DNA of 64,000 nucleotides. Source: Gammaproteobacteria bacterium. Its GTDB lineage: Bacteria; Pseudomonadota; Gammaproteobacteria; Pseudomonadales; Azotimanducaceae. The stretch is from positions 1 to 64,000 of the forward strand of contig JAPOWH010000004.1 of NCBI GenBank assembly GCA_026707735.1, written 5' to 3'. A program made the translations under genes and the position numbers. Of the stretch, positions 21,463-39,083 are shown in pieces. The stretch's first letter is position 1. The number at the start of each line of letters is the position of its first letter. The notes under the pieces are model-generated. The model saw nothing but the letters and a program-made list of their open reading frames with translations, did not search any database and was not told the DNA's origin.

Positions 21463-21616
21463 TTGAATACTTTTTTGCGTAGTTCCCGCGGTTGTGCGAA
21501 GTACGCCCGGGGGAAGCCCTCTCTATCCCGCAAGTGTTATAGCACAACGACCAATATCAACCTGAGAGCGCATACAGAACAATGCGCTTGCGAGTTGGTT
21601 AGTGGATGGAGAAAGG

Positions 21617-21772: not shown

Positions 21773-21913
21773 CACCGCTAATGCGCATGAACGCAATTAG
21801 CCTTGAGGTTGCGAGGTCCCTAACCGATCTTGTGACATAGAGTTGGGGTGTAGTCGGGTACTCTCCAGCCGCTTTTGTTGGTTTTGTCAGCTGGGGCTAC
21901 GCACTAGATCCAT

Positions 21914-21941
21914 TTCACAACTATACTGCTAGCGATATAAG
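21914..21941 (+). promoter_or_regulatory. Candidate sigma70 promoter for the TldE/TldD array
   Basis: TTCACA (21914-21919) and TATAAG (21936-21941) each match consensus at five of six bases, with a 16-base spacer. The predicted start point is near 21948, about 33 bases before the first TldE start codon. Seen by eye only. Confidence 0.4.
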
Positions 21942-21980
21942 TGAAATTGACACATTAATGCAATCCTTGCATGCACAACA

Positions 21981-23825
21981 ATGAGCGCGTACAGAATCAC
22001 TCTTTTGCTAGTTGTAGGAGCAATATTTTCGACGCCCGGAACTGCTGAGAGTGAAAGATCCGCAGTTCTGGACGATGTATTGGTTGAAGCTCTGCGAGAT
22101 GAGATGGATCGGTCGCTCCGTGAGCTTCAGCTGGAAAATGAATCCAAACCTTATTTCATTTCCTACTCGGTTACCGAGGTAAGTTCAGTAGATGCGACGT
22201 ACGTACTAGGCGCACACACCCAATCAAACGCAACAAGTAATCGATTTCTAACGGTCGGTTTGCGGGTTGGTTCTCCCAATCTCGACAATTCCAACTATTT
22301 GTCGGGTAGTGACCGACTTAGCGACATTGGTAGCTACGAGGTGGGGATTAGGCATCGATTGCCTCTATCCAATGACTATTACGAGCTAAGACGGGAAATC
22401 TGGTTGGCAACCGATGCGGCGTACAAGAAAGCCATTGGCGAATTTACTGGGAAAAGTGCTGCTTTAGCCAGTCGACGGGTATCGCAAAGACCCAAGGATT
22501 TCAGTAGCGAGGACCAATTCGTCTACACCTCTCCCATCAAACATTCGGTTTCTGGTTTGGAGGAAGTTTCGGCGATTGCAAAGGGCTTGTCAGCGACATT
22601 TGGCGCTTACCCGCCACTCTTGAACTCTTCAACACGAGTGACATCGATTGCGACAAAACGCTTGTACATCGACTCAGGTGAGAATTTCAATCGTTACGAG
22701 AGTGGAATCTGCTCCGCAATCTCTCAAGCGAGCATTCAAACTCCATCCGGAACGCTGATACCGCTCTCCACGAGCACTTATGCAAGAGATTGCTTTGAGT
22801 TTCGGGACATCACCACGCTCAGTTCGGAAGCTGCCGGCATGGCAGCGAGTCTATTGACATTGCAGAATGCGGATATGCTGGACTTTTACGAAGGACCGGT
22901 GCTCTTTGAGGGGCCTGCTGCTGCACAATTCTTTGGACAAGCGTTGGTCGGTCGCTTAGGGGCTACTCCAAAGGGTGTCGCGGAGGACACAACAGGGTTT
23001 GGGATTGGTGCGATGCTCATCGAGGCAGCAACCGACAATCCATTTGTTGATCGGCTGAACACCATGGTCTTTCCCCCATTTCTTAGTGTTGTGAACGATC
23101 CAACTATTACTGAACACAACAATAGTCCTTTACTTGGGAGCTACGTTGTAGACGAAGAGGGCATGCCGGCAAGGCGTACGGAACTAATAAAAAACGGCAT
23201 GCTGAAGCGACTGCTAACAACTCGTGCACCAACTGATGAATTCAAGCAGACTACGGGCAGTGCTAGAGGTTTAGGTGGTCCGCGTCCGGGCAATCTGTTT
23301 ATAGATTCCGTTGACGGTGTGTCGATGGACGAGCTAAGGTCTACGCTGATGGGTATCGTGGAAGAGAGTGGACAGGAATTCGCGCTGCTTGTTCGACAGT
23401 TCATGAGCGTGGACGATATTCCGTTTGCTGATTCAGAATCTGTGACTTGGCCATTGATGGCGCTAGTGGGAGACGAAACCCGATCATTGCCCACTGCAAT
23501 TGCCTATAAGGTCTTTCCAGACGGACGCGAGGTTCCTGTGCTTCCGTTAGTCGTTGCCGATTTTTCAGATCGGATTTATCGCAAAATCGTTGCTGCTTCA
23601 GATCAACGATGGAAGCGAGATCTGTACTTGGCAGAAACGGCTATACCTGAGCACGGTTTACAAACATCCAAACCAGGAGCAAGTGCAGAACAGAAAGCAG
23701 CATTTCAGGCGTTTGTCTCTATTGTCTCTCCCGCTTTGATCTTCGACGAGGTTACCTTCAAATCAGCAAACATTGTTGAAAGACCGGTGCCCGTTTATTC
23801 TCCACCTGTCCCAGTCGCAAGGTAA
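21981..23825 (+). CDS. Exported TldE/PmbA-like metallopeptidase-family protein (orphan, E1)
   Basis: The 614-residue product starts with a clear signal peptide (hydrophobic core ITLLLVVGAIF, likely cleavage after TPGTA). The mature part begins with EALRDEMDRSLRELQLENE and KPYFISYSVTE, shared by all nine array members. The central module reaches GPVLFEGPAAAQFFGQALVG near 310, the position where TldD carries HExxxH; no metal site is present, as in TldE subunits. In E. coli TldE partners TldD in a cytoplasmic heterodimeric peptidase; this one should be periplasmic or secreted. Unlike the other four E genes it is not coupled to an upstream D gene, and its C-terminal tail is divergent. It may be a spare partner for D1, 277 bases downstream. 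Confidence 0.82.
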   Translation: MSAYRITLLLVVGAIFSTPGTAESERSAVLDDVLVEALRDEMDRSLRELQLENESKPYFISYSVTEVSSVDATYVLGAHTQSNATSNRFLTVGLRVGSPNLDNSNYLSGSDRLSDIGSYEVGIRHRLPLSNDYYELRREIWLATDAAYKKAIGEFTGKSAALASRRVSQRPKDFSSEDQFVYTSPIKHSVSGLEEVSAIAKGLSATFGAYPPLLNSSTRVTSIATKRLYIDSGENFNRYESGICSAISQASIQTPSGTLIPLSTSTYARDCFEFRDITTLSSEAAGMAASLLTLQNADMLDFYEGPVLFEGPAAAQFFGQALVGRLGATPKGVAEDTTGFGIGAMLIEAATDNPFVDRLNTMVFPPFLSVVNDPTITEHNNSPLLGSYVVDEEGMPARRTELIKNGMLKRLLTTRAPTDEFKQTTGSARGLGGPRPGNLFIDSVDGVSMDELRSTLMGIVEESGQEFALLVRQFMSVDDIPFADSESVTWPLMALVGDETRSLPTAIAYKVFPDGREVPVLPLVVADFSDRIYRKIVAASDQRWKRDLYLAETAIPEHGLQTSKPGASAEQKAAFQAFVSIVSPALIFDEVTFKSANIVERPVPVYSPPVPVAR

Positions 23826-24102
23826 GTCGTCCAATCGTACTCACGTATATACCAAGCGACAGCCCCCACGGGAGGAATCCCAATCCGCCTCGTTGATCTC
23901 GAAAACAGAAAGATTCCCCTGCATGGGAGGTCTGTAGCAGACTCTCGATCGAGATGAAGGCACATTTTCCAAAACTGTATTGGCGCGGGAATCCTGCTCT
24001 TGAATGTCATTAAAGCCCGCAATGTGCGTTGTAATCGTCGAACGAATGTAAAGCAGCCCGCGTACGATATTATGAGACAGTACTTTCCGGGGGAATGAAT
24101 TC

Positions 24103-25818
24103 GTGAAACTACCAAAAGAATCAAGGTTGACATTCGGCTTTCTTGTTGCCATTTTGGCATTTGCACCTTCATCATTGAGTGCAGAAACACTCGACGTAAT
24201 GAAGAAGGAACTAGATCGAGCTTTTGAGGCTCTGCAAGTCGAAGAGGAACCGCCTTACTACATAAGCTACGAAATAACCGAGGATGCGGTTGCGTCGGTA
24301 AGCGGCGGATTCGGAGAGATTAACTCAGAGAACCACACAATGTCGCGCTACCTTGACATCGACCTGAGAGTTGGCGACTACTCGCTCGACAACACTCACC
24401 CAGTAGGGAATAGAGGATTTGGTGGGTTCGGTTCACGTGGTCCAACGATGATTGGCGTTGAACACGCTGAATCACTGCAAGCGACTCTGTGGTATCGCAC
24501 AGATGCCGCATACAAAGCAGCGGTTGCACAGTTCAAGAATGTCAAGTCGGAAATTCAATCTAGGGTTGAAGCTGACGACAAATCGGGCGATTTTTCGGAA
24601 GCTCCTGCTTCCGAATACTCGATGGACAGAGAGGAGCTCGTCTCCGACACAGCTGCATGGGGACAAAAACTGCGTCAATTTACGAAGCCGTTTGCTCAAG
24701 CAGAATTCATTCAAAGCAACGCTGCAAACATCACCGGCGAAGTGGAGACCCGATGGTTTGTCAATACTGACGGAACCAAGATCAAGACGTCCCGGGCACT
24801 CTATCGAATGGTTGTTCAAGCTACCGCAAAGGCTGACGACGGCATGGTCTTGTCTCTGGTAGAAACCTTCGAATCAAGCTCTGCCGAAAAACTACTTGAC
24901 GACGAACAAATTCTGACCGCTGTCAATAAGATGATTGATGATCTGGAAGCACTTCGAGTCGCGACTCTCGTAGACCCATACACGGGTCCAGCAATACTCT
25001 CGGGCAGAGCGACGGGTGTGTTCTTTCACGAGATTCTTGGCCACAGGTTGGAAGGCCATCGGCAGAAGAACGAAGACGAGGGCCAGACATTTCGCAAGCA
25101 GATTGGCAAGCGATTGCTTCCCGAGACATTTTCCGTTGTATTCGATCCGTCAATAGACAGGTGGGGCGACATCGAACTTTCCGGAACCTTCAAGTATGAC
25201 AATGAAGGTGTCGCTGGAGAGCGCGTAGTCGCCATCGAGAAAGGTGTCTTGAAGGGATTCCTAATGTCTAGGTCACCTATCGAAGGATTTCCAGCCTCAA
25301 ATGGACATGGACGCAAGGACTATGGAAGAAGAGTTGTTGCTCGCCAATCCAACCTAATCGTTGAAGTAGACGACCCCTACTCGCCTGAGGAACTTCAAGA
25401 ATTACTGCTAGAAAAGGTAAGAGAACAGGGCAAGGAATTTGGTCTCTACTTCGACAACATTACTGGCGGTTTCACGATGACCGGTAGATCAATGCCCAAT
25501 GCGTTCAACGTTACTCCAGTCCTGGTATACAAGATTCATCTGGACGGTACAAGGGAGATCGTTCGCGGTGTTGACTTGATAGGCACTCCGCTTACTACAT
25601 TCAGTCGTGTGGAAGCCGCTGCTTCTGACTACGATGTATTCAATGGAATGTGTGGTGCCGAATCTGGATGGGTTCCTGTGTCCGCTGTCGCACCCTCGAT
25701 CCTTGTATCCCAAATTGAAGTGCAGAAGAAGGCAAGTTCCCGCGACATTCCCCCAATTCTACCGTCGCCGATTCAAGGCCCAATTGACACCTCGATTCAG
25801 CTTTTCGGAGGTGAGTAG
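24103..25818 (+). CDS. Exported TldD-like metallopeptidase (D1)
   Basis: This predicted metalloprotease of 571 residues begins at GTG 24103 behind GGGGGA. The signal peptide core is FGFLVAILAF with likely cleavage after SLSA. The active site FFHEILGHRLEGHRQ has HExxxH at 309-314, and the distal metal-ligand cysteine of TldD lies in FNGMCGAESG at residue 517. LDVMKKELDRAFEALQ near the N-terminus and LDIDLRVGDYSLDNTHP near 85 are the shared family modules. The stop codon overlaps the GTG of the next TldE gene by one base, behind an excellent GGAGG, so the two are co-translated. Substrate peptides are unknown; periplasmic location is inferred from the signal peptide. Confidence 0.87.
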   Translation: MKLPKESRLTFGFLVAILAFAPSSLSAETLDVMKKELDRAFEALQVEEEPPYYISYEITEDAVASVSGGFGEINSENHTMSRYLDIDLRVGDYSLDNTHPVGNRGFGGFGSRGPTMIGVEHAESLQATLWYRTDAAYKAAVAQFKNVKSEIQSRVEADDKSGDFSEAPASEYSMDREELVSDTAAWGQKLRQFTKPFAQAEFIQSNAANITGEVETRWFVNTDGTKIKTSRALYRMVVQATAKADDGMVLSLVETFESSSAEKLLDDEQILTAVNKMIDDLEALRVATLVDPYTGPAILSGRATGVFFHEILGHRLEGHRQKNEDEGQTFRKQIGKRLLPETFSVVFDPSIDRWGDIELSGTFKYDNEGVAGERVVAIEKGVLKGFLMSRSPIEGFPASNGHGRKDYGRRVVARQSNLIVEVDDPYSPEELQELLLEKVREQGKEFGLYFDNITGGFTMTGRSMPNAFNVTPVLVYKIHLDGTREIVRGVDLIGTPLTTFSRVEAAASDYDVFNGMCGAESGWVPVSAVAPSILVSQIEVQKKASSRDIPPILPSPIQGPIDTSIQLFGGE

Positions 25819-27527
25819 TGAGGACTTTTAAATCTTTTGCTCTTGGGTTGATTGTTCTGAGTGTTGCTGCCAATCTACAAGCACAATCCGACGACGAGGA
25901 CACGCTGCTGCGTGCTTTGCAGGATGAAATGGATCGTTCTCTTGCTGAACTTCAGTTGGACGAAGAGCCCCCTCCCTACTTCATTTCCTACAGGGTAGTC
26001 GAATCAAGCTCAGTCGCTGCAACCTACACATTGGGAGCGCACAATCGTTCCAATGGAAGTAGGGGACGAAGTCTACTAGTAGCGGTGCGCGTTGGAAGCA
26101 AGGAACTTGACAACACCAATTTTCAGTTTGGAGGATTCACTGCCTCCCGGGGTCTTCCTTTGACGAACTCGTATGAAGAGTTGCGACGCAGCATTTGGAT
26201 GGCAACCGATTCTGCGTACAAGCAAGCCGTTTCGAATTTGTCGTCGAAGCGCTCCGCATTGGAAAGCCAGACGATCGAGGATCGTCCAAAGGACTTTAGC
26301 GATGAAGAGAAATACACATGGATGGGTGAGGAGTCGTTTAGTGTTGCAAATTCCAACGAGGTGTCTGCAATCGCAAGAGAATTGTCAACTTCGTTCCTGG
26401 GCCAACCTGATCTGTTTGTCTCATCGGCTACCGCTTCGTCTCGAGCTTCGACAACCTTGTACCTGGATTCGGAAGGGAATTTCAACAGGTATGAGAACGG
26501 GCACTGTTCGGCGACGGTGTTTGCCAAAACCCAATCTACGGACGGCGCCGAGCTGCAGGACGCGACCACCACATATGCTCGAAAGTGTTCCGATCTCCCG
26601 GATTCAGACTCATTGAAGCAATTGGGATTAGATTTGGCAGACAGACTCATTGCTCTACGCAATGCAGAGTCTCTGGATAACTACAACGGTCCAGTTCTCT
26701 TAGCCGACAAAGCTGCTGCACAGTTTCTTGGGCTTCAGTTGTTGGGACTCCTAGGAGCTTCGCCCATTCCTGTGGCGAGCAATCCTACTATGGCGCAGTC
26801 TCTGCGACGAAACGCAAATCCATTCATGGACAAGCTCAATGCTAGGGTATTTCCGCGGTTCATCGACGTTGTTAATGACCCCACTCTGACCGAATTTGAA
26901 GGCAAGGCACTACTGGGCAACTATCACGTTGACATGGATGGTATGCCCTCCCGCCGGACGGAATTGGTAGCAAACGGCATGTTAAGAGCACTTCTCACAG
27001 GTCGGGCGCCGACGAAGTCCTCGGACATGTCAACGGGAAGCAATCGTGGGCTTAGATCACCCTATCCTGGAAATTTGTTCGTTGAAGCACGAGATGCGCT
27101 GGAGGACGACGAGCTACGAACGGAATTGCGCGCCTATGCTCAAGACTATGGATTGGAGTTCGCCCTTGTCGTGCGCAAGTTTTCAACTCGGCAAGACTTT
27201 TTCAGCGATCCTGTGGCTGCCGCTTCGGTGGGCTTTGGTGGTGGTGGAGTAATGACTGCATTTGACGTTGTCAAGCTCTATGAAGACGGGCGGGAAGTTC
27301 CCGTCAGACCAATGAGCGTGTCAAATTTCGTAGTTTCGTTCTTCAAGGATATTGTCGCAGCGTCTACTGGCCGCACGCACTACGACATGCCGCTGTCAGT
27401 GGGAAGTTCTAGCTTTGCCTCCATCATTACGCCATCGCTCCTGTTTGAGGATCTCAGCATGAGGTCTGCAGGTGAGGCCAAGCCCAAGTTGCCGTTGTTT
27501 CCGCATCCACTGGCTGCAGGACAATGA
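25818..27527 (+). CDS. Exported TldE/PmbA-like partner (E2)
   Basis: The 569-residue product begins at GTG 25818, overlapping the D1 stop by one base, with GGAGG positioned for it. The signal peptide is short (LGLIVLSVAANLQA, then Q). The central segment GPVLLADKAAAQFLGLQLLG replaces the HExxxH region of TldD, so the protein is non-catalytic by family rules and probably acts as the partner of D1. Family modules ALQDEMDRSLAELQLDEE and PPYFISYRVVE are present. The C-terminus ends in FEDLSMRSA and a Pro-rich tail (KLPLFPHPLA) shared with E3, E4 and, more loosely, E5. Confidence 0.82.
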   Translation: MRTFKSFALGLIVLSVAANLQAQSDDEDTLLRALQDEMDRSLAELQLDEEPPPYFISYRVVESSSVAATYTLGAHNRSNGSRGRSLLVAVRVGSKELDNTNFQFGGFTASRGLPLTNSYEELRRSIWMATDSAYKQAVSNLSSKRSALESQTIEDRPKDFSDEEKYTWMGEESFSVANSNEVSAIARELSTSFLGQPDLFVSSATASSRASTTLYLDSEGNFNRYENGHCSATVFAKTQSTDGAELQDATTTYARKCSDLPDSDSLKQLGLDLADRLIALRNAESLDNYNGPVLLADKAAAQFLGLQLLGLLGASPIPVASNPTMAQSLRRNANPFMDKLNARVFPRFIDVVNDPTLTEFEGKALLGNYHVDMDGMPSRRTELVANGMLRALLTGRAPTKSSDMSTGSNRGLRSPYPGNLFVEARDALEDDELRTELRAYAQDYGLEFALVVRKFSTRQDFFSDPVAAASVGFGGGGVMTAFDVVKLYEDGREVPVRPMSVSNFVVSFFKDIVAASTGRTHYDMPLSVGSSSFASIITPSLLFEDLSMRSAGEAKPKLPLFPHPLAAGQ

Positions 27528-27609
27528 GCCGGCAAGTACATGTTTGGGCGGTTGGGCAAGTTTGTGAGCTTCTAACTTGACATCGTCTGATTTGCACGGG
27601 GTGTCAGGC

Positions 27610-29349
27610 ATGCAGCATGGACGCCTGAGACATCGCGACAAGCGGCCGTTGTCGGACATTTCAAACGCGTTGTGCGTCTGCTCACTTGTTGCTGCCACGC
27701 AACTGTGCGCAGACGCAGACGTCTTGGACGTCATGCAGGACGAACTGAATCGCTCATTCAAAGTCCTGCAGGAGGAACCGACACCTCCATACTACTTGAG
27801 CTATGAAATTACCGAGAGCGCAAGTGCGAACATTAGTGCTAGTTTTGGTGAGGTGATCAATCGTGGTTCGTCCACGACCAGATACATAGATATCAATCTG
27901 CGTGTTGGCGATTTCTCGCTCGACAACACCCATCCAGTCGAAGGTGGCACGGTAATTCCGGACTTGGGCGCTTACACAATTGCCATTGATGACGTAGACG
28001 CCTTACGCACTACGCTGTGGTATAGAACCGATATGGCGTTCAAGACAGCTCTTTCTCAGTTCACCCGTGTTCGCAATCGAGTCCAAACAACGGTGGAAGC
28101 TGATGACAAGTCCGGAGACTTTTCCGTCGTCGAACCGTCTACCTATATCGAGGAAAAAAGAGAATTGGATGCCGACATGGAACTATGGGGTCGAAAACTC
28201 CAGGAATATACGCATCCATTTGCTACTTCGCCTGTAGTACAAACCAATTCTGCCTCAATTAGTGGCGAGGTTGAGACTAGATGGTTTGTCAATACAGACG
28301 GCTCGCGGGTACTCGTCTCTCAACCGTACTATCGCATGGTGATTTCTGCCACCGCAAAAGCCGATGACGGCATGGTGCTGGGACTCGTCCGGACGTTTGA
28401 CTCAGTCGCTCCTGATCGCCTCCTAAAGGACGAGGAAGTCCTGGCCACTGTGAATACCATGATTGATGAACTAAAGGCACTGCGAGAAGCACCTCTTGTT
28501 GATCCTTATACGGGACCCGCGCTGCTATCAGGTCGTGCCACTGGAGTGTTTCTCCACGAAGTTCTTGGTCACCCTTTGGAGGGACATCGCCAGAAGTCGG
28601 AGGACGAGAGTCAAACCTTCCGCAAGCAAGTTGGCGAGCAGTTACTCCCGGAAGGATTTTCTGTAGTGTTTGATCCGTCCATGGAAGTGTTTGGGGAGAC
28701 CGACTTGATTGGCAACTACAAGTTTGACAACGAGGGAGTTAGGGGACAAAGGGTCGTTGTTATTGACAACGGCGTTCTCAAAGGCTTCTTGATGTCGAGA
28801 GCGCCAATCGAAGGGTATCCTGAGTCGAACGGTCATGGACGTAAGCAGATTGGACATGCAGTAGTAGCTCGTCAATCCAACCTCCTGCTTGAAGTAGATG
28901 ACCCAGTTTCCTCCGAAGAACTTGAAGCCATGCTGCTAGAGCAGGTGGAGGAACAGGGCAAGGAATTTGGTCTGTACTTCAAGGACATAACTGGAGGATT
29001 CACTACGACCCAGCGTAATTCTCCCAGCGCGTTCAACGTAACTCCGGTCTTGGTGTACAAGATCTACCGTGATGGTTCGAAGGAATTGGTTCGAGGCGTC
29101 AATCTGATTGGGACTCCACTTGCGACACTTAGTGAGGTAAAAGCTGGAGCAACCGACATTGAAATATTCAATGGCATTTGCGGGGGTGAATCTGGAAGTG
29201 TTCCCGTGTCTGCAGTTGCCCCGTCGATTCTGATTTCTCAGATAGAAGTTCAAAAGGCAGAGATCTCGCGAGACATTCCGCCGATTCTGCCATCGCCTGT
29301 TGACAACTCGTCGGCCCAACTGATGAATTCCACAGGTGATACCCAATGA
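27610..29349 (+). CDS. Exported TldD-like metallopeptidase (D2)
   Basis: This is 579 residues from ATG 27610; the frame is open back to TTG 27577, and GTG 27601 is another option. A basic N-terminus (MQHGRLRHRDKRP) precedes a hydrophobic core with several cysteines (ALCVCSLVAATQLCADA), less typical than in the other D proteins but consistent with export. The active site is FLHEVLGHPLEGHRQ, with HExxxH at about 316-321, and the cysteine ligand is in FNGICGGESG near 524. The C-terminus carries SQIEVQKAEISRDIPPILPS. The stop overlaps the next gene by four bases (ATGA). D2 is the most similar to D1, sharing DDKSGDFS near 190, which suggests recent tandem duplication. Confidence 0.86.
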   Translation: MQHGRLRHRDKRPLSDISNALCVCSLVAATQLCADADVLDVMQDELNRSFKVLQEEPTPPYYLSYEITESASANISASFGEVINRGSSTTRYIDINLRVGDFSLDNTHPVEGGTVIPDLGAYTIAIDDVDALRTTLWYRTDMAFKTALSQFTRVRNRVQTTVEADDKSGDFSVVEPSTYIEEKRELDADMELWGRKLQEYTHPFATSPVVQTNSASISGEVETRWFVNTDGSRVLVSQPYYRMVISATAKADDGMVLGLVRTFDSVAPDRLLKDEEVLATVNTMIDELKALREAPLVDPYTGPALLSGRATGVFLHEVLGHPLEGHRQKSEDESQTFRKQVGEQLLPEGFSVVFDPSMEVFGETDLIGNYKFDNEGVRGQRVVVIDNGVLKGFLMSRAPIEGYPESNGHGRKQIGHAVVARQSNLLLEVDDPVSSEELEAMLLEQVEEQGKEFGLYFKDITGGFTTTQRNSPSAFNVTPVLVYKIYRDGSKELVRGVNLIGTPLATLSEVKAGATDIEIFNGICGGESGSVPVSAVAPSILISQIEVQKAEISRDIPPILPSPVDNSSAQLMNSTGDTQ

Positions 29350-31142
29350 GACGAGCGGGCGCGTGCGCAATTGCGCTATGTTGGCTCGCTTTGGCTGGGT
29401 GCCTTCAAGCTCAAGAGAGCGAGGGGGACATACTGCGGCGCGCAATGCAAGACGAATTGGATCGTTCTCTAAGCGAGCTTCAATTGGAAGGCGAACCGAA
29501 ACCTTACTTTATCTCGTACACGGTTACCGAGCTTGAGTCTCATTCCATGCGGTACGTACTTGGGTCGCACGATTCTTCGAGTACAAATCTGAGACGTACG
29601 TTATTTGTAGCTGTGCGAGTAGGGAATTCCGAGCTTGACAACACTGGATTCCTAGACGTGAGCAACGATCAAATCGCAATCAACCTGGGAATAATTGGAA
29701 CCGCTCTCCCCTTGCGCGACAATTACGATGAACTTCGTCGGGTCATGTGGTTAGCCACCGATGCTGCATACAAAGCGGCGACAAAAACGTATTCGGCCAA
29801 GAGATCAGCACTGGAAAACCAGATAGTTGGATCTAGGACACCGGATTTCAGCGAGGAAGAGCCCCACCTATACCTGGAGGAATCTGACCAATTAGGTTTC
29901 AGCTTGGAGGAACTAGCAGGTATCGCCCGAGAGGTGTCTCAGGCCTTCGCGGACCAACCCAATGTGTTTGCGTCTTCGGCACATGTTCAAAGCACCGTAT
30001 CCTCGCGCACCTACCTCGACACCGAGGGGAATCACAATCGGCTCTACACTCCGCAATGTACAGTCGGGGCAACGGCCAGGACTCAAGCGTTGGACGGAGC
30101 GGCAATTCACGACTCCACTTACACCTACTCTAGGAGCTGCTCCGATCTTCCGGCCATTGATTCCCTAAGGGCCAAAGCAGTTGCCATGGCGCAGCGACTC
30201 GAGGCTCGACGCGACGCTGAGCCTTTGTACGTATATAGTGGTCCAGTTCTATTCGAACCTGATGCAGCCGCACACTTCCTGAACCAAGTACTAGCAAAAT
30301 TGCTTGGAGCAACCTCGGTGCCAGAGACGGGAAATCCGCAGTGGGACAGCAACCTCGAGCAAGTTGCCAATCCTTTCGTCGCCAAGATTGATGCTCGAGT
30401 TTTTCCGAGGACGATTAGTGTCTTCAATGACCCGACTATTTCGGATTACCAGGGCAGACCATTGCTTGGCAGCTATGCCGTCGATGCGGAAGGTATGCCC
30501 ACTCGGCGTACCGAATTGATTTCAAACGGCATACTTAAGACGCTGCTTACCACTCGCGACCCTGTCAATAAGTTGGTTAATTCCACGGGCAGCCACAGAG
30601 GCTATGGAAATCCTCTGCCAGGCAACCTCTTCATTCAGCCCGAAAGTGGTCTTTCGATGGATGAATTGCGAACCGAGCTGATTGAGTTGGCAAAGGAAAA
30701 CGGATCGGAGTTTGCTCTATTGGTACGCAAGATGCAGAGCATGGAAGACTTCGATGGCAGCGAAAGCCCGCTAGATGAGTTGTTCCAAACTCAGTTTGCC
30801 GGTGGGATTTCCGCCATGCCCGCCATAGATGTCGTCAAGATATACACGGATGGGCGCGAGGTCCAAGTATTGCCACTAGTAGTAACAGATTTTGTCGACA
30901 GCCATTTCCGGGACATTGTGGCAACCTCAGCGGAGACTGTGCACGCCGACGTAGCCATTTCTCCATTCGCCAACATGAATATTCTTTCTCTATTTACGGA
31001 AGGTATATCGGCATTGCATGGCGGCAAGGAGTTCATTTCAATCATCACTCCGGCGCTGCTATTTGAGGATCTGAGCCTTAGAAGTGCCGTAGGGTTCAAA
31101 CCCAATCTTCCTGCGGTTCCGCATCCGCTAGCCCAAGATTAG
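29346..31142 (+). CDS. Exported TldE/PmbA-like partner (E3), possibly a lipoprotein
   Basis: The 598-residue product overlaps D2 by four bases. Its signal peptide ends LALAGCLQAQ: LAGC is a lipobox, so the protein may be lipid-anchored, although ordinary cleavage after LQA is also possible. The segment GPVLFEPDAAAHFLNQVLAK takes the place of HExxxH. The array N-terminal modules (MQDELDRSLSELQLEGE, PYFISYTVTE) and the tail (FEDLSLRSA, then LPAVPHPLA) are present. It is probably the non-catalytic partner of D2. A membrane-anchored partner would fix the complex at a membrane. Confidence 0.82.
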   Translation: MRRAGACAIALCWLALAGCLQAQESEGDILRRAMQDELDRSLSELQLEGEPKPYFISYTVTELESHSMRYVLGSHDSSSTNLRRTLFVAVRVGNSELDNTGFLDVSNDQIAINLGIIGTALPLRDNYDELRRVMWLATDAAYKAATKTYSAKRSALENQIVGSRTPDFSEEEPHLYLEESDQLGFSLEELAGIAREVSQAFADQPNVFASSAHVQSTVSSRTYLDTEGNHNRLYTPQCTVGATARTQALDGAAIHDSTYTYSRSCSDLPAIDSLRAKAVAMAQRLEARRDAEPLYVYSGPVLFEPDAAAHFLNQVLAKLLGATSVPETGNPQWDSNLEQVANPFVAKIDARVFPRTISVFNDPTISDYQGRPLLGSYAVDAEGMPTRRTELISNGILKTLLTTRDPVNKLVNSTGSHRGYGNPLPGNLFIQPESGLSMDELRTELIELAKENGSEFALLVRKMQSMEDFDGSESPLDELFQTQFAGGISAMPAIDVVKIYTDGREVQVLPLVVTDFVDSHFRDIVATSAETVHADVAISPFANMNILSLFTEGISALHGGKEFISIITPALLFEDLSLRSAVGFKPNLPAVPHPLAQD

Positions 31143-31263
31143 CCGCTAACTTCTACTTAACGTCTGCATTAACTCTCCTGTCGAGGATGTGGCAATCGTG
31201 GCACAGCTTTCGAATAATAGGCATCTCTAACCCACGAGCTTCCTAGCACACGAGACAATAGAT

Positions 31264-32967
31264 GTGAAACGATATATTTGCTACGCGCTACTTTTGCAGT
31301 TGCTTTTGCTGGGAACTGCGACCGCAACCGAGTTGGATGCTCTCGATGTGATGTTTCGAGAAGTACAACGATCGATGAAAGTCCTCAAGAGGCATGACGA
31401 AGCGCCTTACTACATCAGCTATGAGATCACTGAAGACGTTGCTGCCACTGTCAGCGGCGCATTTGGAAAAGCAACAAGCAGGAACTTCATCGTTAGCCGG
31501 TACTTGGACATCGATCTACGCCTGGGGGACTACTCTCTTGACAATACCCATCCCCTTCGCGGCGGATTGAGTGAGTTATCGAACGGACCGGCAACGACGC
31601 CCATCGAGGACGAGGAAGCGCTTCGGACTACTCTCTGGCTTCATACGGACGTGGCTTACAAGCAGGCATTGACTCAGTTCACGAGAGTCAAGTCCGCAGT
31701 GCAGTCAAGTGTCAGACCTGTTTTTCGAGTGGGAGACTATTCCCCATACCCGGTGCGGAAATTCAGTGAAGCAAAGGTTGAGTTGGATGCTGATTTCGAG
31801 CATTGGAGAGACAAGATTCAACAGTACACGGAGCCATTCTCTGAGGCGGAGTTCATTCAGGACAACTATGCGTACATCTTCGGGGATGTGGAGACAAGGT
31901 GGTTTGTCAATTCGGATGGATCAAGAATCTTAGTTTCGAAGCCCTACTATCGGTTGGTCATTCAGGCTACCACCAAGGCTGACGACGGTATGGAGATATC
32001 TCTTGAGCGCACTTTTGACGCTAGCACTCCTAACAAGATTCTGCAGGATGAACAGGTTATGAGTGCAGTCCGCAGCATGATCGAGGACTTGCATGCGCTT
32101 CGTGTCGCTCCATTGGTGGAGCCGTACACTGGACCGGCGATCCTATCGGGACGATCAACGGGCGTTTTCTTCCATGAGGTCTTGGGACACCGCGTCGAGG
32201 GCCATCGACAGCGACTGCTCGATGAAGCGCAAACTTTCCATTCGCAACTCAACCAAAGATTGCTACCGCGAAGCTTTTCGGTTGTTTTTGATCCAACAGA
32301 AGGTAGCTTCGACGGGGTGGAGTTGATTGGAGGTTACAAGTACGACAATCAGGGTGTTGAGGCCCAACGGGTCGTAGTTGTCGATCGTGGGACTCTGAAG
32401 GGTTTCTTGATGTCCAAGACTCCAATAATGGGCTTCTATAGATCAAATGGCCACGGAAGGAAAAACTACGGCTATCCCGTAGTTTCTCGTCAGTCCAATC
32501 TCTTTGTCGAAATCCGAAATCCTCATACGAGGGATGAGCTTGAAGCGATGCTCATCGAGCGAATCAAGGAACAAGGGAAGCCCTACGGTTTGTATTTTGC
32601 GGATGTAAAAGGCGGGTTCACTCTGACTGCTCGCTCCATGCCAAATGCATTCAACGTGAATCCATTGATGGTTTACCGTCTGTATCCCGATGGTAGCAAG
32701 GAGTTGGTCAGAGGTGTAGACTTGATCGGCACTCCGCTGACAACATTCAGTCGCGTAGAAGCAGGCGCGGACGACTACGAAGTATTCAACGATGTGTGCG
32801 ACGCGGAATCCGGACAACTGCCCGTTTCCACCGTGGCGCCCTCGATACTGATTTCTCAGATTGAAGTACAGAAGACAGAAAGCTCGCGGAGCATTCCTCC
32901 AATACTGCCTTCCCCTGTTTCTCGCATCGATGGTCATTCCGGTTCTCGGGCCGATAGCGAACGATGA
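31264..32967 (+). CDS. Exported TldD-like metallopeptidase (D3)
   Basis: The 567-residue enzyme begins at GTG 31264, 121 bases after E3. The signal peptide is MKRYICYALLLQLLLLG with likely cleavage after TATA. FFHEVLGHRVEGHRQ places HExxxH at 304-309, and the cysteine is in FNDVCDAESG at 512, where the usual Gly after Cys is Asp. Compared with its paralogues it has extra basic residues near 35 (LKRHDEAPYY) and lacks the DDKSGDF motif, so it has diverged. The stop overlaps E4 by four bases. The C-terminal SQIEVQKTESSRSIPPILPS is kept. Confidence 0.86.
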   Translation: MKRYICYALLLQLLLLGTATATELDALDVMFREVQRSMKVLKRHDEAPYYISYEITEDVAATVSGAFGKATSRNFIVSRYLDIDLRLGDYSLDNTHPLRGGLSELSNGPATTPIEDEEALRTTLWLHTDVAYKQALTQFTRVKSAVQSSVRPVFRVGDYSPYPVRKFSEAKVELDADFEHWRDKIQQYTEPFSEAEFIQDNYAYIFGDVETRWFVNSDGSRILVSKPYYRLVIQATTKADDGMEISLERTFDASTPNKILQDEQVMSAVRSMIEDLHALRVAPLVEPYTGPAILSGRSTGVFFHEVLGHRVEGHRQRLLDEAQTFHSQLNQRLLPRSFSVVFDPTEGSFDGVELIGGYKYDNQGVEAQRVVVVDRGTLKGFLMSKTPIMGFYRSNGHGRKNYGYPVVSRQSNLFVEIRNPHTRDELEAMLIERIKEQGKPYGLYFADVKGGFTLTARSMPNAFNVNPLMVYRLYPDGSKELVRGVDLIGTPLTTFSRVEAGADDYEVFNDVCDAESGQLPVSTVAPSILISQIEVQKTESSRSIPPILPSPVSRIDGHSGSRADSER

Positions 32968-34754
32968 AGCGGCTGACAATCAGCATTGTTGCGCTATTTG
33001 TAGGATTAGCTGCTAGCGGACAATTGTCCAACGACGACGTGCTTGTTCGCGCTCTTCAAGACGAAATGGATCGTTCCTTGGCAGAACTCCAACTTGAGAA
33101 CGAGCCTTTGCCTTATTTCATCTCGTACTCGGTTCAGGAAAGGAAAAGTTCAACCCTGACCTATGTTTTGGGTGCACATGACGGTACGAACTCCAGTTTG
33201 GTGCGTTTGCTCAACGTCGTTGTAAGAGTTGGCTCCAAGCAGCTCGACAACACAAACTTCTTGCTTTTGGAGGCAACTCCTGATCAGCTCAATGAGATGG
33301 GTACTCCGCATGTACTCCCGTTGACTGACGACTACGACGAATTGCGGCGGTCCATTTGGATTGCGACGGATCAGGCCTACAAGGAGGCATTGGTCCATTA
33401 CTCTGCAAAGACGTCGGCTATAGCAAACCAAACCACGGCAGAACGCGTCAACGACTTTAGTGAGGAGGAAGCGTATCAGTATGTTGACGAACGAATTCCA
33501 TTAGGACTTGAACTCGACCAGCTTGCCAATCTTGCACGCCAGGTATCTGAGGTGTTTCGGGGTCGGTCCGAGGTTTTCTCTTCCTACGCAACCGCCTTCA
33601 GCAGCACGACCAAACGGACATACCTTGACTCCGAAGGCAACTTCCATCGCTACAGTTTTGAACTGTGCAACGTTCGAACGCATGCTTCCACCCAAACCTC
33701 CACTGGAGCCATAGTCAAGGATGGAACTTCGGCCCTGACACGCGATTGCTCCAGACTCCCCAAAATTGAATCGTTGCAAGCAGATGCGGCTTACATGGCA
33801 GAACACCTTGTGGACCAACGTCAGGCGGAGTCTCTCGAAGCCTATACGGGTCCAGTATTTATGGAGAGCAAGGCAGCCGCCGAATTCATTAATCAAGCAT
33901 TGTCTGGTCTCTTGGTTGCGGTTCCCGTGCCCATGACAGCCAGTCCTCAGCTAAACACTCAAATTCAGAACATCGCCAACCAGATGGTTCACAGAATTGA
34001 CACGCGTGTGTTTCCTCGCAACATATCCATTGTCAATGACCCTACGATTGACGAGTATCGTGAACGGTTGTTAATGGGCAGCTACGCAGTCGATAGTCAG
34101 GGAATGCCGTCGAGACGTACCGAAATGATTTCCAAAGGCATCCTCAAGAATTTGTTGACTACTCGATCTCCCGTTGCAGAGCTAGCCTCGACCACCGGTA
34201 GTCACCGAGGAATGCCAATTCCACTTCCTGGCAACTTGTTCCTGCAAACAGAACGTGGTGTTTCTCAAGAATCGATTCTTGAGCAGGCCATTCAAATTGC
34301 AGACTCCAACGGGTCGGACTTCGCACTAGTTATCCGCAAGATCGCCAATACGCAAGAAATCGAAATGGCGCATGTCGAGATGTCAGAAATGGTAAGTGCG
34401 ACAATGGAGGGAAATGTCGCAGTACTGCCTGCGATTCACGTGGTCAAGTTGTATCCGGATGGTCGAGAAGTTCCTGTCCAACCCATGGTGATCGTAGATT
34501 TTGTCCCTGGACATTTCAGGGACATTGTGGCAACAACGTCTCAAACCCACCATCATGACGTGCCGGCGTCTCCCTTGTCGGGGCTAAATGTCTTGATGGC
34601 CATGATCAGGGGTCCTGGGGCACTTTCCGGATATGACCAAATCTATAGCTCAATTGTCACGCCAGGATTGCTTATTGAGGAAATGTCGCTGCGCATTGCC
34701 AGCGGACAGATGCCAAGACTGCCATTTGCTCCCCATCCGATGGCAGACGAGTGA
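32964..34754 (+). CDS. Exported TldE/PmbA-like partner (E4)
   Basis: The 596-residue product starts at ATG 32964 within the D3 stop region (ATGA overlap). The signal peptide is MKRLTISIVALFVGLAASG. ALQDEMDRSLAELQLENE and PYFISYSVQE match the other E proteins. GPVFMESKAAAEFINQALSG replaces the catalytic motif. It resembles E3 more than E2 in the middle region (RTEMISKGILKNLLTTRSPV) and ends EEMSLRIA and LPFAPHPMA. It is the probable partner of D3. A 357-base gap and a small lipoprotein gene follow before the last pair. Confidence 0.82.
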   Translation: MKRLTISIVALFVGLAASGQLSNDDVLVRALQDEMDRSLAELQLENEPLPYFISYSVQERKSSTLTYVLGAHDGTNSSLVRLLNVVVRVGSKQLDNTNFLLLEATPDQLNEMGTPHVLPLTDDYDELRRSIWIATDQAYKEALVHYSAKTSAIANQTTAERVNDFSEEEAYQYVDERIPLGLELDQLANLARQVSEVFRGRSEVFSSYATAFSSTTKRTYLDSEGNFHRYSFELCNVRTHASTQTSTGAIVKDGTSALTRDCSRLPKIESLQADAAYMAEHLVDQRQAESLEAYTGPVFMESKAAAEFINQALSGLLVAVPVPMTASPQLNTQIQNIANQMVHRIDTRVFPRNISIVNDPTIDEYRERLLMGSYAVDSQGMPSRRTEMISKGILKNLLTTRSPVAELASTTGSHRGMPIPLPGNLFLQTERGVSQESILEQAIQIADSNGSDFALVIRKIANTQEIEMAHVEMSEMVSATMEGNVAVLPAIHVVKLYPDGREVPVQPMVIVDFVPGHFRDIVATTSQTHHHDVPASPLSGLNVLMAMIRGPGALSGYDQIYSSIVTPGLLIEEMSLRIASGQMPRLPFAPHPMADE

Positions 34755-35111
34755 CCGCTTCGAATTTCTGGCTATTCATTGCTGACTTAACTTACAAGAC
34801 CTAAAAGCAGTCTCCTAGTGTGTAAATTCGAAAATTGGTCTCCTCCACACGTTTTGTGAGCGCTAAGAGGTTGCAACCTTCCCTCTAGTTCCTGTCTTCA
34901 ACGTGAAATCCAATTGTTTGCCGTTGGCAAAGAAAACAACGTTGCGCGCCAAGTACTTTTGAAGATTTAGGAAGGCCTGACCTAGGTTCACGCGGGCGTT
35001 TTCCGTATTGACCGCACAGCACCGATGCAACAGGTACAGGTGCCAGGACGTTGCTAAAATGGATTTGCTTATACCAGTTCAACCATTCCGTATTTTGGAG
35101 GCGAAAAATAA
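34755..35111. other. Gap within the TldD/TldE array; possible decayed coding remnant on the minus strand
   Basis: No intact gene was seen. On the minus strand, 35078 to 34863 reads as 71 codons without a stop and with protein-like composition (LGQAFLNLQKYLARNVVFF, then a TAG), but no start codon or family is recognisable. A strong GGAGG for the lipoprotein gene lies at its right end. Confidence 0.3.
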
Positions 35112-35519
35112 ATGAGAAAGGCAGTACTGTTGGTGCTTTTAGCATTGACGTACGCTCTTGCGGGATGTGCGACCGTATTTAGTTATTCCGAATATCCTGT
35201 TAGAGTTGAGAGTTCGCCGACGAATCTCCAAATAGAAATACGAGATGCAAAGGGAAATATAGTTCACCGGGGTCAAACACCCGAGGTTGTTACGCTAGAT
35301 GCCCATGGAGGTTTTTTACAGCAAGCGACGTATTATGTGAAGTTGTATAGGTCTGGCACAGTAATTGGGGAAACCGTCATCAGAGGAGGCATTGACGGAT
35401 GGTTCTTCGTTAACCTGCTTGGCGGCGGAGTAGTGGGAATGCTCATTGACGCTGCTACAGGCGCAATGTGGGTTCTGGACGAATATGTGACAGTCCATGC
35501 GGACAAAGCGGACGAATAA
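35112..35519 (+). CDS. Small lipoprotein of unknown function
   Basis: The 135-residue product has a textbook lipoprotein signal (MRKAVLLVLLALTYALAGC, lipobox LAGC, Cys 19). After Ala-Thr the mature chain is mainly beta-like (VRVESSPTNLQIEIRDAKG), then a glycine-rich hydrophobic segment (GWFFVNLLGGGVVGMLIDAA) followed by TGAMWVLDE near 105-125. The segment resembles small bacterial lipoproteins with an internal Gly-rich hydrophobic hairpin. The start has GGAGG about 10 bases upstream. It lies inside the exported TldD/TldE array on the same strand and could be an anchor or accessory, but that is positional inference. Confidence 0.75.
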   Translation: MRKAVLLVLLALTYALAGCATVFSYSEYPVRVESSPTNLQIEIRDAKGNIVHRGQTPEVVTLDAHGGFLQQATYYVKLYRSGTVIGETVIRGGIDGWFFVNLLGGGVVGMLIDAATGAMWVLDEYVTVHADKADE

Positions 35520-35536
35520 GCCCCAATCAGTCGTGT

Positions 35537-35566
35537 GTGGTCACCGTATATCAGGTGACTATCCAC
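35537..35566 (+). terminator. Hairpin after the lipoprotein gene
   Basis: GTGGTCACC and GGTGACTATCCAC pair across an 8-base loop (GTCACC/GGTGAC perfect). There is no adjacent U-tract, so it may be a weak terminator, an RNA-stabilising hairpin or an operator. Confidence 0.3.
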
Positions 35567-35679
35567 GATCCTGTAGATAGACTTTTAGCCTTTTGTAAGC
35601 GAAGATTCAAATTGACACACCTCGCTCCATTCAGATCGGACTAGCTTCGAATTAGAACCAATTTGACCACCATCTCACT

Positions 35680-37377
35680 ATGAAGATCCTCCCGTTAGCA
35701 CTGTTCCTTTGCGTCGCAGCCCACAATTGCCTTGGTGCGGCTAGTTCAGAGACTGAGTTTGATGTATTGGATGTGATGCTCGACGAACTGTCTCGATCGT
35801 TTGACGTCCTGCAAGACGAGGACGAGCCTCCGTACTTTCTTAGCTATGAAATCACCCAGGACAAAATCCGAAGCGTAAGCGGCTCCTATGGTGAAATTGG
35901 CGGAATCGTCGACCGTTCGTTCCGTGAATTGGACATCGATCTAAGAGTTGGTTCATCTGAACTCGACAACACCCATTTTGGAGGTAGGGGTGGCGCCACA
36001 TCGATTTCGATAGAGAGTCCTGAGGCAATTCGCAACACGTTGTGGTATGCCACGAACCGGGAATACCGAATCGCCATTGCCCAATTGAGCGATGTTCGGA
36101 GTGCCATGCAGTCGCGCGTAGAGGAAATCGACCAATCGGGAGACTTCTCGCCAGCTCCTCGCGAGGAGTATCGAACAGATGTTATTGAGCTAGAAGCAGC
36201 TCTTTCCGTTCTACAGGAGAAAGTCAGACTATACGGCGCTCCCTTCAAACGCGCCGAACACATAATCTTCAACAGGGTTACTGTTTCAGGAGACGTCGAA
36301 ACTCGCTGGTTCGTCAATAGCGAAGGCACCAAGATACGAGTTTCCCAACCTTTCTACCGAGTAACTATCGAAGCATCCTCAAAAGCCGACGACGGTATGG
36401 TTCTGTCCCGCCAGCTAAGTCATATTTCAACCTCGTTGGACGGATTGCCTGACGATGAGTCAATTCTGAACGAAGCAGAGACGCTAATCGAGGAACTGGC
36501 AGAAATGCGCGATGCACCAATAGTTGAGCCCTATGCGGGACCCGCCATTTTGTCTGGACGTGCAACGGGAGTCTTTTTTCACGAGATTCTTGGACATCGT
36601 CTAGAGGGTCATCGGCAAAAGGCGGAACACGAAGGGCAGACGTTCAAGTCAAAGCTTGGAGAGTATGTATTGCCAGAGAACTTTAGCGTCGTCTTCGACC
36701 CCAATGTTCGCAAGTTTGGAACGATCGATTTGGCAGGATCTTACGACTTCGACAATCAAGGAGTGCGAGCACAGCGTGTCACCGTGGTCAGGGACGGCAT
36801 ATTGGAAGGTTTCCTGACATCTCGGCTACCAATGGAAGGCTTTCCAATATCAAACGGGCACGGGCGAAAGAATCAGGGCCGCCCCGTGGTTGCGAGACAA
36901 TCCAACATGTTTGTAGAAGTTGAGAATCCCTATTCGCCAGAGCAGCTCAAAGCTATGTTGATTGAGCGGGTTCTGGAACAGGGCAAGGAGTTTGGACTTT
37001 ATTTCGAGGACATTCGAGGCGGCTTCACCGTAACTCAGCGCACCATGCCGAATGCCTTCAATGTCACTCCAGTTGTCGTGTATCGAATCTTTACGGACGG
37101 GCACCAGGAGATGGTTCGTGGAGTTGACCTTATCGGAACACCGCTTACGACATTCAGTCGGGTTGAAGCGGGCGCATCCGACTTTGAGGTCTTCAATGGC
37201 GTCTGTGGCGCCGAATCGGGCTTGGTTCCTGTCGCCGCCGTTGCACCTTCTATTCTGGTGTCGCAAATTGAAGTCCAGAAGAAGGCTAGCTCAAGAAGCA
37301 TACCTCCAATCTTGCCAAATCCCGTCGACGCCCAGGAAGGGCTATCTTCCAACACACCGACATTGCTCAGACGATGA
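35680..37377 (+). CDS. Exported TldD-like metallopeptidase (D4)
   Basis: The 565-residue enzyme has a signal peptide (MKILPLALFLCVAAHNCLG, likely cleavage near GAA). FFHEILGHRLEGHRQ gives HExxxH at 301-306; the cysteine ligand is in FNGVCGAESG at 509. VLDVMLDELSRSFDVLQDED is the shared N-terminal module. Its C-terminal segment SQIEVQKKASSRSIPPILPN is like D1. Its stop overlaps E5 by four bases. It lies 160 bases after the lipoprotein gene, so this pair may have its own promoter. Confidence 0.87.
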   Translation: MKILPLALFLCVAAHNCLGAASSETEFDVLDVMLDELSRSFDVLQDEDEPPYFLSYEITQDKIRSVSGSYGEIGGIVDRSFRELDIDLRVGSSELDNTHFGGRGGATSISIESPEAIRNTLWYATNREYRIAIAQLSDVRSAMQSRVEEIDQSGDFSPAPREEYRTDVIELEAALSVLQEKVRLYGAPFKRAEHIIFNRVTVSGDVETRWFVNSEGTKIRVSQPFYRVTIEASSKADDGMVLSRQLSHISTSLDGLPDDESILNEAETLIEELAEMRDAPIVEPYAGPAILSGRATGVFFHEILGHRLEGHRQKAEHEGQTFKSKLGEYVLPENFSVVFDPNVRKFGTIDLAGSYDFDNQGVRAQRVTVVRDGILEGFLTSRLPMEGFPISNGHGRKNQGRPVVARQSNMFVEVENPYSPEQLKAMLIERVLEQGKEFGLYFEDIRGGFTVTQRTMPNAFNVTPVVVYRIFTDGHQEMVRGVDLIGTPLTTFSRVEAGASDFEVFNGVCGAESGLVPVAAVAPSILVSQIEVQKKASSRSIPPILPNPVDAQEGLSSNTPTLLRR

Positions 37378-39083
37378 AGTGGATATTGGCACTTGTTGCA
37401 CTAGCGCCTGCCGTTGGTGCAAATGCCCAAGCAACTCAGGATGCAGATCCCGTTGTCCAAGCGATGAGGGATGAACTTCGGCGGTCCATGAGTGACTTGC
37501 AACTGAAGGGCTCTCCTCAACCTTATTTCATTGCCTACACGGTGCGGGACAATTCGCAATTGCTGGAGTCGTTCTACTTGGGCACGTCGGTTCGTGCTGA
37601 CAGGACTAGCTCTCGAACTGTTCGAGTGGAGGTCCGAGTCGGATCCTATGAACTCGACAATCGCAACTACCGACCTCGCGTGAACCGATCTGCAACGATA
37701 ACGCAGGCGTTGCCTATCAGTGACGATTACGAGGAAATACGGCGCGCGATTTGGCGCGCAACCGATGCCGCGTACAAGAACGCTGCTCAGAACTACGCAG
37801 CGAAACTCACTGCATTGGAGGGACGACGAAGCGACGATCCGGCACCGGACTTCACTATTGAAGAACCGTTCCAATATGTGAGAGCAGAGCAACCGACCGC
37901 GGACGACATCGACTTAGATGCAGTCCGCGAGCCAGCAAGAGAACTCTCGTCAGCCTTCTCAAGTTCACCCGATATATTCACTTCGGTTGTGGCCGCGTCT
38001 GCGGCAAAGAGACGACGCATCTACTTGAACAGCGAAGGCAGTTTCCACGACTATGTGGAGCAACAGTGTCGTATTAGAACGCTGGCTTTTACTCAAATGC
38101 TGGATGGCACGGAGATACAAGACTACGCCAACGAGTACGCTATCGATTGTGCGAGTCTTCCACCCTTGGCCGAAATGCAAACGGGAGTGCGGTCGCTCAT
38201 CTCGCGATTGACGAGTTTGAGATCCGCTGAACCGTTTGGGGATGTATACAACGGCCCGATACTGTATGAGGGACAGGCGGCAGCACAAATACTCCGACGT
38301 CTTCTCTTGCCAAGATTAATGGCAGTTAGAGTGCCCATGACGGATGATGCTCGATCCGATTCTCAGCGATTCAGAAACCCATTTCTGGACAAGATCGGTA
38401 CTCGAGTTGTATCCGCCAAAATCGATGTCATAAACGATCCAACGCTAACCGAATTCAATGGCCAACCCTTGCTTGGACACTACTTTGTAGATCGGCAGGG
38501 AATCCCTGCTCGTCGCACGCTGCTTGTCGAGGAGGGAAGGTTGAAGACGCTTTTGACTACACGCAGTCCGGTGGACGAGTTCGACAAGAGCACAGGCTCC
38601 AGCCGAACTGGCGGTAGTGCGATGCCAGGCAATGTCCTGATTCTTCCCAAGGAAGGGGAGGGGTGGACTGATGAAGAGATTCGCGTAGAAATGAACTCCT
38701 TGTTGGACGATTACGGCTTGGATTATGGAATCGTGGTGCGCAGATTGGCCAATCGTGCAGAGCTGGCGTTCGGCAATCGCACCTCTGTCCTGCTTGAAGC
38801 GTACAAAGTGTTTGCGGACGGTAGAGAGGTACTCGTGCCAGCGATGGAGATTACTGGCTACAGTGATCGAACATTGCGTGACATTGTTGCTGTTTCACAG
38901 GAGATTCAGCAGTACGACACGGTTTACGGCAGTGGAAGTGGTGCATGGGTTACGCCCATTTCGATCATCGCTCCTTCGTCACTTCTCATAGAGGAACTGA
39001 CAGCGAGAAAGATGCGTCCCGTATCGCCAAAGCCTCCGGTTGTTCCGCATCCATCGGTTGATTCGACAGCGGTATCGAATTAA
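37374..39083 (+). CDS. Exported TldE/PmbA-like partner (E5)
   Basis: The 569-residue product starts at ATG 37374, overlapping D4. The signal peptide is MKWILALVALAPAVGANA, then Q. It is the most divergent E protein: GPILYEGQAAAQILRRLLLP stands where TldD has HExxxH, and the charged residues around 80-110 (RADRTSSRTVRVEVRVGS) are distinctive. Family modules MRDELRRSMSDLQLKGS and PYFIAYTVRD remain. It is the likely non-catalytic partner of D4 and the last gene of the array; a promoter for imuA follows after about 255 bases. Confidence 0.82.
   Translation: MKWILALVALAPAVGANAQATQDADPVVQAMRDELRRSMSDLQLKGSPQPYFIAYTVRDNSQLLESFYLGTSVRADRTSSRTVRVEVRVGSYELDNRNYRPRVNRSATITQALPISDDYEEIRRAIWRATDAAYKNAAQNYAAKLTALEGRRSDDPAPDFTIEEPFQYVRAEQPTADDIDLDAVREPARELSSAFSSSPDIFTSVVAASAAKRRRIYLNSEGSFHDYVEQQCRIRTLAFTQMLDGTEIQDYANEYAIDCASLPPLAEMQTGVRSLISRLTSLRSAEPFGDVYNGPILYEGQAAAQILRRLLLPRLMAVRVPMTDDARSDSQRFRNPFLDKIGTRVVSAKIDVINDPTLTEFNGQPLLGHYFVDRQGIPARRTLLVEEGRLKTLLTTRSPVDEFDKSTGSSRTGGSAMPGNVLILPKEGEGWTDEEIRVEMNSLLDDYGLDYGIVVRRLANRAELAFGNRTSVLLEAYKVFADGREVLVPAMEITGYSDRTLRDIVAVSQEIQQYDTVYGSGSGAWVTPISIIAPSSLLIEELTARKMRPVSPKPPVVPHPSVDSTAVSN

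Follow-up and report, generated by a model that had tools for sequence, protein, structure and literature searches.

Nine consecutive genes for homologues of the peptidase subunits TldD and TldE were found on the plus strand of a 64,000-nucleotide stretch of the draft genome of an uncultured gammaproteobacterium (G000:C5:1-64000; this whole stretch is called the window below). They occupy positions 21981-39083, and four of them are D-type and five E-type. The array is best explained as encoding four exported TldD/TldE-type heterodimeric metallopeptidases plus one orphan E subunit, which would trim unfolded peptides, probably in the periplasm. We put the probability of this reading at roughly 70%. 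The genome (3.37 Mb, 29 contigs, 95.8% complete) contains 11 matches to the PF19289 domain, comprising the nine array genes and one ordinary TldD/PmbA pair, the two genes of which are adjacent on another contig.

The genes are arranged in the order E1-D1-E2-D2-E3-D3-E4-D4-E5. E1 (21981..23825), which has no D gene directly before it, is followed by D1 (24103..25818) and its predicted partner E2 (25818..27527), D2 (27610..29349) and E3 (29346..31142), D3 (31264..32967) and E4 (32964..34754), and D4 (35680..37377) and E5 (37374..39083). Within the pairs the reading frames overlap, by 1 base in D1/E2 and by 4 bases each in D2/E3, D3/E4 and D4/E5, and gaps of 277, 82, 121 and 925 bases lie ahead of D1, D2, D3 and D4, respectively. 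The 82-base gap is counted from the ATG at 27610, a more likely start for D2 than the TTG at 27577, where the mechanically called open reading frame (ORF) begins. Since the D and E frames overlap and gaps precede the D genes, the natural unit is a D gene followed by an E gene, with E1 as an orphan. No remnant of a lost D gene was found ahead of E1; the best E values, 0.08 in 21463-21980 and 0.02 in 15000-21980, were taken as chance. Identity is 54-60% between D proteins, 35-49% between E proteins and 23-26% between D and E.

All nine proteins passed the curated cut-off (22 bits) of PF19289 (PmbA_TldD_3rd, the C-terminal domain), with scores of 56-97 bits and E values of 3e-15 to 1e-27 (E1, 61.5 bits; D1, 89; E2, 64.5; D2, 96.8; E3, 66.8; D3, 80.2; E4, 56.5; D4, 87.5; E5, 58.4). 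The central-domain model PF19290 was passed by D2 only, with D1 just below. An HExxxH motif and a distal Cys are present in all four D proteins (H309-E310-xxx-H314 and C517 in D1; HEVLGH in D2), and HExxxH is present in none of the five E proteins. Across the D family, HExxxH was found in 96 and the Cys in 95 of 98 rows, a set from which one E-like row, repeated contigs and matches shorter than 400 residues had been removed. When the D profile was compared with PDB sequences, the matches at E ≤ 0.001 were to E. coli TldD only (3 distinct sequences, best 3.6e-14).

AlphaFold models were made for two of the nine proteins, D1 and E2, with a mean pLDDT of 87.6 and 91.1, respectively. Foldseek against the PDB placed TldD chains at the top for D1 (5njf_A, E 2.2e-32, TM-score 0.79 by target length, rmsd 5.2) and PmbA/TldE chains at the top for E2 (1vl4_A, E 1.2e-24, TM-score 0.77, rmsd 6.3). 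For D1 and E2 alike, all 16 hits at E ≤ 0.001 were TldD/TldE/PmbA structures. An earlier note on this DNA had described nine consecutive TldD/TldE-family homologues on one strand, four of the D and five of the E type, and this observation is confirmed.

N-terminal export signals were assessed with a home-made rule (not SignalP) that scores an n-region, a hydrophobic core and a small-residue cleavage site. The rule, which is lenient, was passed by all nine array proteins with scores of 3.9-5.0. D2 has the weakest signal by eye, with a long charged n-region, and it passed only when a long n-region was allowed. Canonical TldD and PmbA are cytoplasmic, and neither of the two canonical proteins of this genome passed. 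Among all fetched rows, including those of the window, 107 of 112 D proteins and 85 of 85 E proteins with an anchor motif passed; this count excludes rows below 250 bits, leaves 6 D and 33 E rows without an anchor unjudged, and includes eight contigs twice (L078-L081 and L083-L086 repeat L001-L008). The signal peptides that the earlier note had assigned to each of the nine proteins thus find suggestive support.

Two further sequence features touch on the compartment. Each of the 27 E rows in the multi-copy clade has a shared pair of Cys residues that the other 18 rows of that set lack, a pattern that would be compatible with a disulfide formed under oxidising conditions, as in such a compartment outside the cytoplasm. 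As a family-wide trait the Cys pair was rejected, no E column having Cys in more than 30% of 98 rows. E3 contains a lipobox-like LAGC, the sole case among 70 judged E rows, and is possibly a lipoprotein.

In the proposed mechanism, the N-terminal signals would send D and E through the inner membrane, and assembly would most likely take place in the periplasm. The D protein would carry the metal site, formed by the two His of HExxxH and the distal Cys, and the E protein would be a catalytically empty partner that closes the shell. Unfolded peptide N-termini would then thread into the hollow dimer and be clipped stepwise, as has been proposed for E. coli TldD/E (PMC5810440).

The predicted D-E heterodimer is suggested by the overlapping genes of the array and by natural D-E open frames elsewhere. 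In locus L047, a single open frame (1605-4973, 1123 codons) spans D and E, and inspection by eye showed no further signal peptide between its two halves. Neighbouring D and E matches of identical frame length point to such a shared frame in five genomes, G429, G430, G432, G434 (the genome of L047) and G809 (from another genus), which supports the view that the two subunits work together.

We investigated how the array arose by comparing it with 17 relatives from the genus. Seven contain one D-E pair, seven contain two, two contain three D and four E genes, and one, which is 77% complete, contains none. Both of the larger arrays, L078 and L079, have the order E-D-E-D-E-D-E; behind a leading E gene, orthologues of D1/E2, D3/E4 and D4/E5 follow one another as they do in the window. 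Trees of 42 D rows and 45 E rows were built with IQ-TREE, and FastTree agreed on the main groups. They divide the multi-copy part of the genus into two old pair types, D4/E5 (support 98/97 for D and 100/99 for E) and D1-D3/E1-E4 (95/89 for D and 100/99 for E), and they pair D1-E2, D3-E4 and D4-E5 across three genomes. E4 groups with the L078 and L079 genes (94/86). Position and FastTree (0.95) make the front E gene of L078 and L079 an orthologue of E1, while IQ-TREE is undecided. A D4-type gene lies downstream in both arrays with three D and four E genes and in six of the seven two-pair relatives. L082 shows a duplication of its own within the upstream type, for which the tool warns that long E branches may be falsely joined; the same warning applies to the single-pair clade with L093. 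In two-pair relatives, purifying selection acts on both pair types, the NG86 dN/dS being 0.06-0.13 in six of six comparisons from two pairs of such relatives (L003/L006 and L005/L007). The trees and the relatives' arrays indicate stepwise growth in place, a single D-E pair having been duplicated in tandem several times within the genus. Expansion by tandem duplication of a D-E pair is what the earlier note had proposed; D2/E3 is the part of the history that is not clean.

The relatives also bear on the alternative that the array is an artefact, produced by misassembly or by miscalled starts on cytoplasmic proteins. The genome is a draft in 29 contigs, the starts are unproven and the signal rule is lenient. 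On the other side, two other assemblies carry like arrays, and a further seven carry two-pair arrays. The window has an acetoacetyl-CoA synthetase gene close to the array, and the same gene adjoins eight of the nine relatives' arrays, namely L079 and all seven two-pair loci; the contig of the ninth, L078, ends ahead of its place. Signal-like N-termini are found across phyla, and the canonical pair is separate. An artefact is therefore highly improbable, and misassembly was rejected on the strength of like arrays in independent assemblies of the same genus.

Outside the genus, the members found were mostly single pairs. In the family, members were present in 36 of 200 genomes (the window's own included), spread over 4 of 37 genera. 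Of 369 genomes sampled evenly across the class, the window's own alone had members, and of 297 sampled evenly across the phylum to which L077, an Acidobacteria record, belongs, 45 had them. Scoring in these samples was confined to the top few candidates of each genome, and copy numbers from them are lower bounds. Genome contigs, when scanned, yielded 77 loci, including records from Acidobacteria, Gemmatimonadota, Verrucomicrobia, Latescibacteria and Gammaproteobacteria. In 75 of the 77, D has a second homologue behind it, the exceptions being L059 and the fragment L076; L047 counts here as one frame, the second gene of L067 is slightly nearer the D model, and a few are in pieces. Fifty of these loci come from 49 genomes, of which 35 have a single pair (two matches) and seven have three pairs, each on a different contig (G429, G430, G432, G434, G435, G443 and G456). 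Tandem growth was seen solely in the window's genus among the genomes searched. Plasmid records gave 54 matches, all below 60% identity, and none covered 80% of D1; among the matches listed, five at 26% identity comprised two annotated as TldD-family and three without a listed gene. The apparently exported D-E pair thus looks widespread, and only the tandem array looks special to the genus.

A number of observations weigh against the preferred reading of the array as exported, active TldD/TldE heterodimers. In terms of family membership, the first-domain model of Pfam was matched by none of the nine proteins, the structural matches have an rmsd of 5-8 Å at 12-20% identity, and none of the nine reached the NCBIfam equivalog cut-offs for TldD/PmbA, the best scores being 102 bits versus 635 (NF040952), 64 versus 513 (NF008006) and 28 versus 438 (NF008268). 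Because these cut-offs were missed by a wide margin, the nine proteins are, judged by sequence profiles, members of the TldD/TldE family (M103) and not TldD or PmbA equivalogs. Profile alignment also places His and Ala in the array D proteins at the positions of Asp272 and Lys456 of E. coli TldD, residues that, according to a passage of PMC5810440, help tether a clamp and form a salt bridge near the metal site. In the export assessment, two of 12 other soluble proteins of the window passed the rule (2.2 and 3.5), as did three of three ATP-binding cassette (ABC) membrane proteins (3.2-4.4, overlapping the range of the nine); since the latter pass too, the rule cannot separate a cleaved signal from a membrane anchor. 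Five anchored D rows failed the rule (L020, L027, L042, L053 and L057). In the trees, D2/E3, which was found in the window only, does not behave as a clean pair duplication. D2 groups weakly with D1 (86/76) and E3 groups with E4 (99/97), and the pair may therefore derive from a crossover. Finally, two relatives keep full-length D paralogues that lack the second His of HExxxH and the distal Cys (L079:10811-12652 in G007, a D3 orthologue, and L008:9965-11686 in G002), which fall in different subgroups of the upstream type in the D tree. They are possibly pseudoprotease subunits, and not every copy need be a protease, given that G007 and G002 each keep a D copy without two zinc ligands.

We examined the divergence among the copies along their length. 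Mean pairwise identity among D1-D4 is 79% at 301-325 (HExxxH), 68% at 501-525 (Cys) and 83% at 526-550, and it falls to 35-42% at 101-125, 151-200, 251-275 and the C-terminus. Since the catalytic-motif regions are better conserved than the remainder, an altered cutting preference among the D copies is not indicated. The several substrate specificities suggested in the earlier note are thus not apparent at the active site; loops, the entry channel and the E subunits could still differ. E is the faster-changing subunit, and the loops and the E subunits diverge most. Entry, partner choice or expression are better candidates for the reason why four pairs are kept.

The same conservation favors a plain gene-dosage explanation, in which all copies do one job and the array simply supplies more of a single envelope peptidase. 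This explanation is unlikely, in that the copies are old and diverged to the identities given above, yet orthologous sets have been kept across genomes, and both pair types are under purifying selection in the two-pair relatives. A more elaborate possibility, which we consider tentative and quite unlikely, is a combinatorial envelope protease. The four D and five E subunits would be exported jointly and swap partners, the choice of E would set which unfolded peptides enter one shared type of cutting site, and E1 would act as a decoy or regulator; in the relatives, the D copies without zinc ligands would also alter peptide entry.

The genes around the array were examined for partners and substrates. 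Three MsbA-like ABC transporter genes lie upstream on the minus strand, one at 11929-13767 and two neighbouring ones in 17333-21462, the latter between an AMP-binding enzyme gene and the array. As a conserved partner of the array, these exporters were rejected, with no match above 45% identity in the fetched loci. In the two-pair locus L003, HlyD, ABC and FtsX/MacB-type genes lie upstream (2211-6578) and ABC and HlyD-like genes downstream (17577-19389), and neighbour clusters common to L003-L008 recur. L090, the sole single-pair member of the genus that was scanned, has a close same-strand run around its D-E pair (684-8588) with DsbA-like, FGGY-kinase, TIM-barrel-like (below the cut-off) and TauD-like genes. 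No neighbour conserved across phyla that would name a substrate was found among the 77 loci, the largest cluster occurring in 12 and the next in 11. L064 belongs to these 12, mostly Bryobacterales or Solibacter records, and the gene after its D-E pair (13348-15699) is LptF/LptG, a neighbour that possibly hints at an envelope link.

The exporter genes bear on the alternative of dedicated peptide maturation, in which exported pairs would remove leaders of the ribosomally synthesized and post-translationally modified peptide (RiPP) type during or after export, with one precursor per pair. Known TldD/E proteases mature microcin B17, klebsazolicin and a microcin C analogue, according to a passage of PMC10885120, and exporter genes occur both upstream of the array and around the pairs of L003. 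We regard this alternative as improbable. Pfam scans of 29 other distinct proteins of the window revealed no modifying enzyme specific to RiPPs (no systematic search for short precursor ORFs was made); the most similar in type, a PCMT-type methyltransferase, is encoded 17 kb away at 56831-57580. The three ABC genes of the window also differ from the acetoacetyl-CoA synthetase gene in having no match above 45% identity in the fetched loci, and leader removal in microcin B17 comes before export, as stated in a passage of PMC5810440.

Whether the substrates are peptides at all is the point of another alternative, in which the exported array proteins would hydrolyse amides of small molecules, such as N-acetyl groups. 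The lincosamide proteins CcbIJ/LmbIJ are N-deacetylase relatives of TldD/TldE, and a 2022 review by Vobruba et al. reportedly, going by its title, treats such relatives as N-deacetylases. No small-molecule pathway common to the loci was seen in the flanks examined (some loci were scanned with Pfam), and we consider this explanation decidedly unlikely. The trimming of unfolded peptides, argued by analogy with E. coli TldD/E, is the preferred function.

Other features of the window lie beside this argument. The 925-base gap between E4 and D4 houses a small ORF on the plus strand (35112..35519, 135 aa), the product of which is lipoprotein-like with a lipobox-like LAGC. It has no Pfam or NCBIfam match and no match above 45% identity in the fetched loci, and it is a doubtful member of the system. 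Directly downstream of the array, 39397-44727 contains in succession ImuA, which passes its NCBIfam cut-off, an ORF resembling a Y-family polymerase and one for a polymerase of the DnaE type, constituting an SOS mutasome cassette; ImuA adjoins the array in one relative, L078, and many of the fetched stretches end short of that place. Two minus-strand ORFs, 44888-46756 (623 aa) and 3-2543 (847 aa, running off the window), have no Pfam or NCBIfam matches, and Rfam gave nothing at gathering scores in 19000-42000.

The earlier note had singled out the array as a candidate for an undescribed system. This holds in part: the tandem array looks special to the genus, but its unit, the apparently exported D-E pair, is widespread. 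Among the literature matches listed, no title or abstract opening dealt with signal-peptide-bearing TldD/TldE or with tandem arrays, in a search that left most subscription journals outside, and priority for either is not established. TldD/TldE is a closed-shell peptidase with known roles inside the cell. A widespread exported branch, if true, would be a self-compartmentalised peptidase in the cell envelope, a place where, to our knowledge, such chambers are little known. The array points to a relocation of this barrel-shaped peptidase to the cell envelope, where it would have multiplied. The natural series of one, two, three and four pairs within one genus is material for testing how specificity is set, to which the zinc-ligand-free D copies of the genus and the natural D-E frames of related genera add.

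Compared with known systems, the array most closely resembles E. coli TldD/TldE (PmbA; MEROPS M103, formerly U62), in which, according to a passage of PMC5810440, the two His of HExxxH and Cys454 of TldD bind the metal and activity needs both subunits. The likeness covers the fold of both subunits and the confinement of HExxxH and the distal Cys to one of them. The TldD/E proteases of RiPP pathways are of the same catalytic type as the array D proteins and, as described in a passage of PMC10885120, are often encoded outside the peptide clusters. A 'Peptidase U62', MXAN_2519, is listed among the outer-membrane-vesicle proteins of Myxococcus xanthus identified by mass spectrometry in a passage of PMC4158809; a member of the U62/M103 family may thus already have been met outside the cytoplasm. 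Unlike E. coli TldD/TldE, the array proteins have export-signal-like N-termini, and the D precursors are 84-98 residues longer than the NCBIfam TldD model (481) and the E precursors 123-168 residues longer than the PmbA model (446). They also differ in scoring below the equivalog cut-offs and, for D, in not keeping Asp272/Lys456, and their D and E genes overlap and have been amplified, while the genome keeps the ordinary pair on another contig as well.

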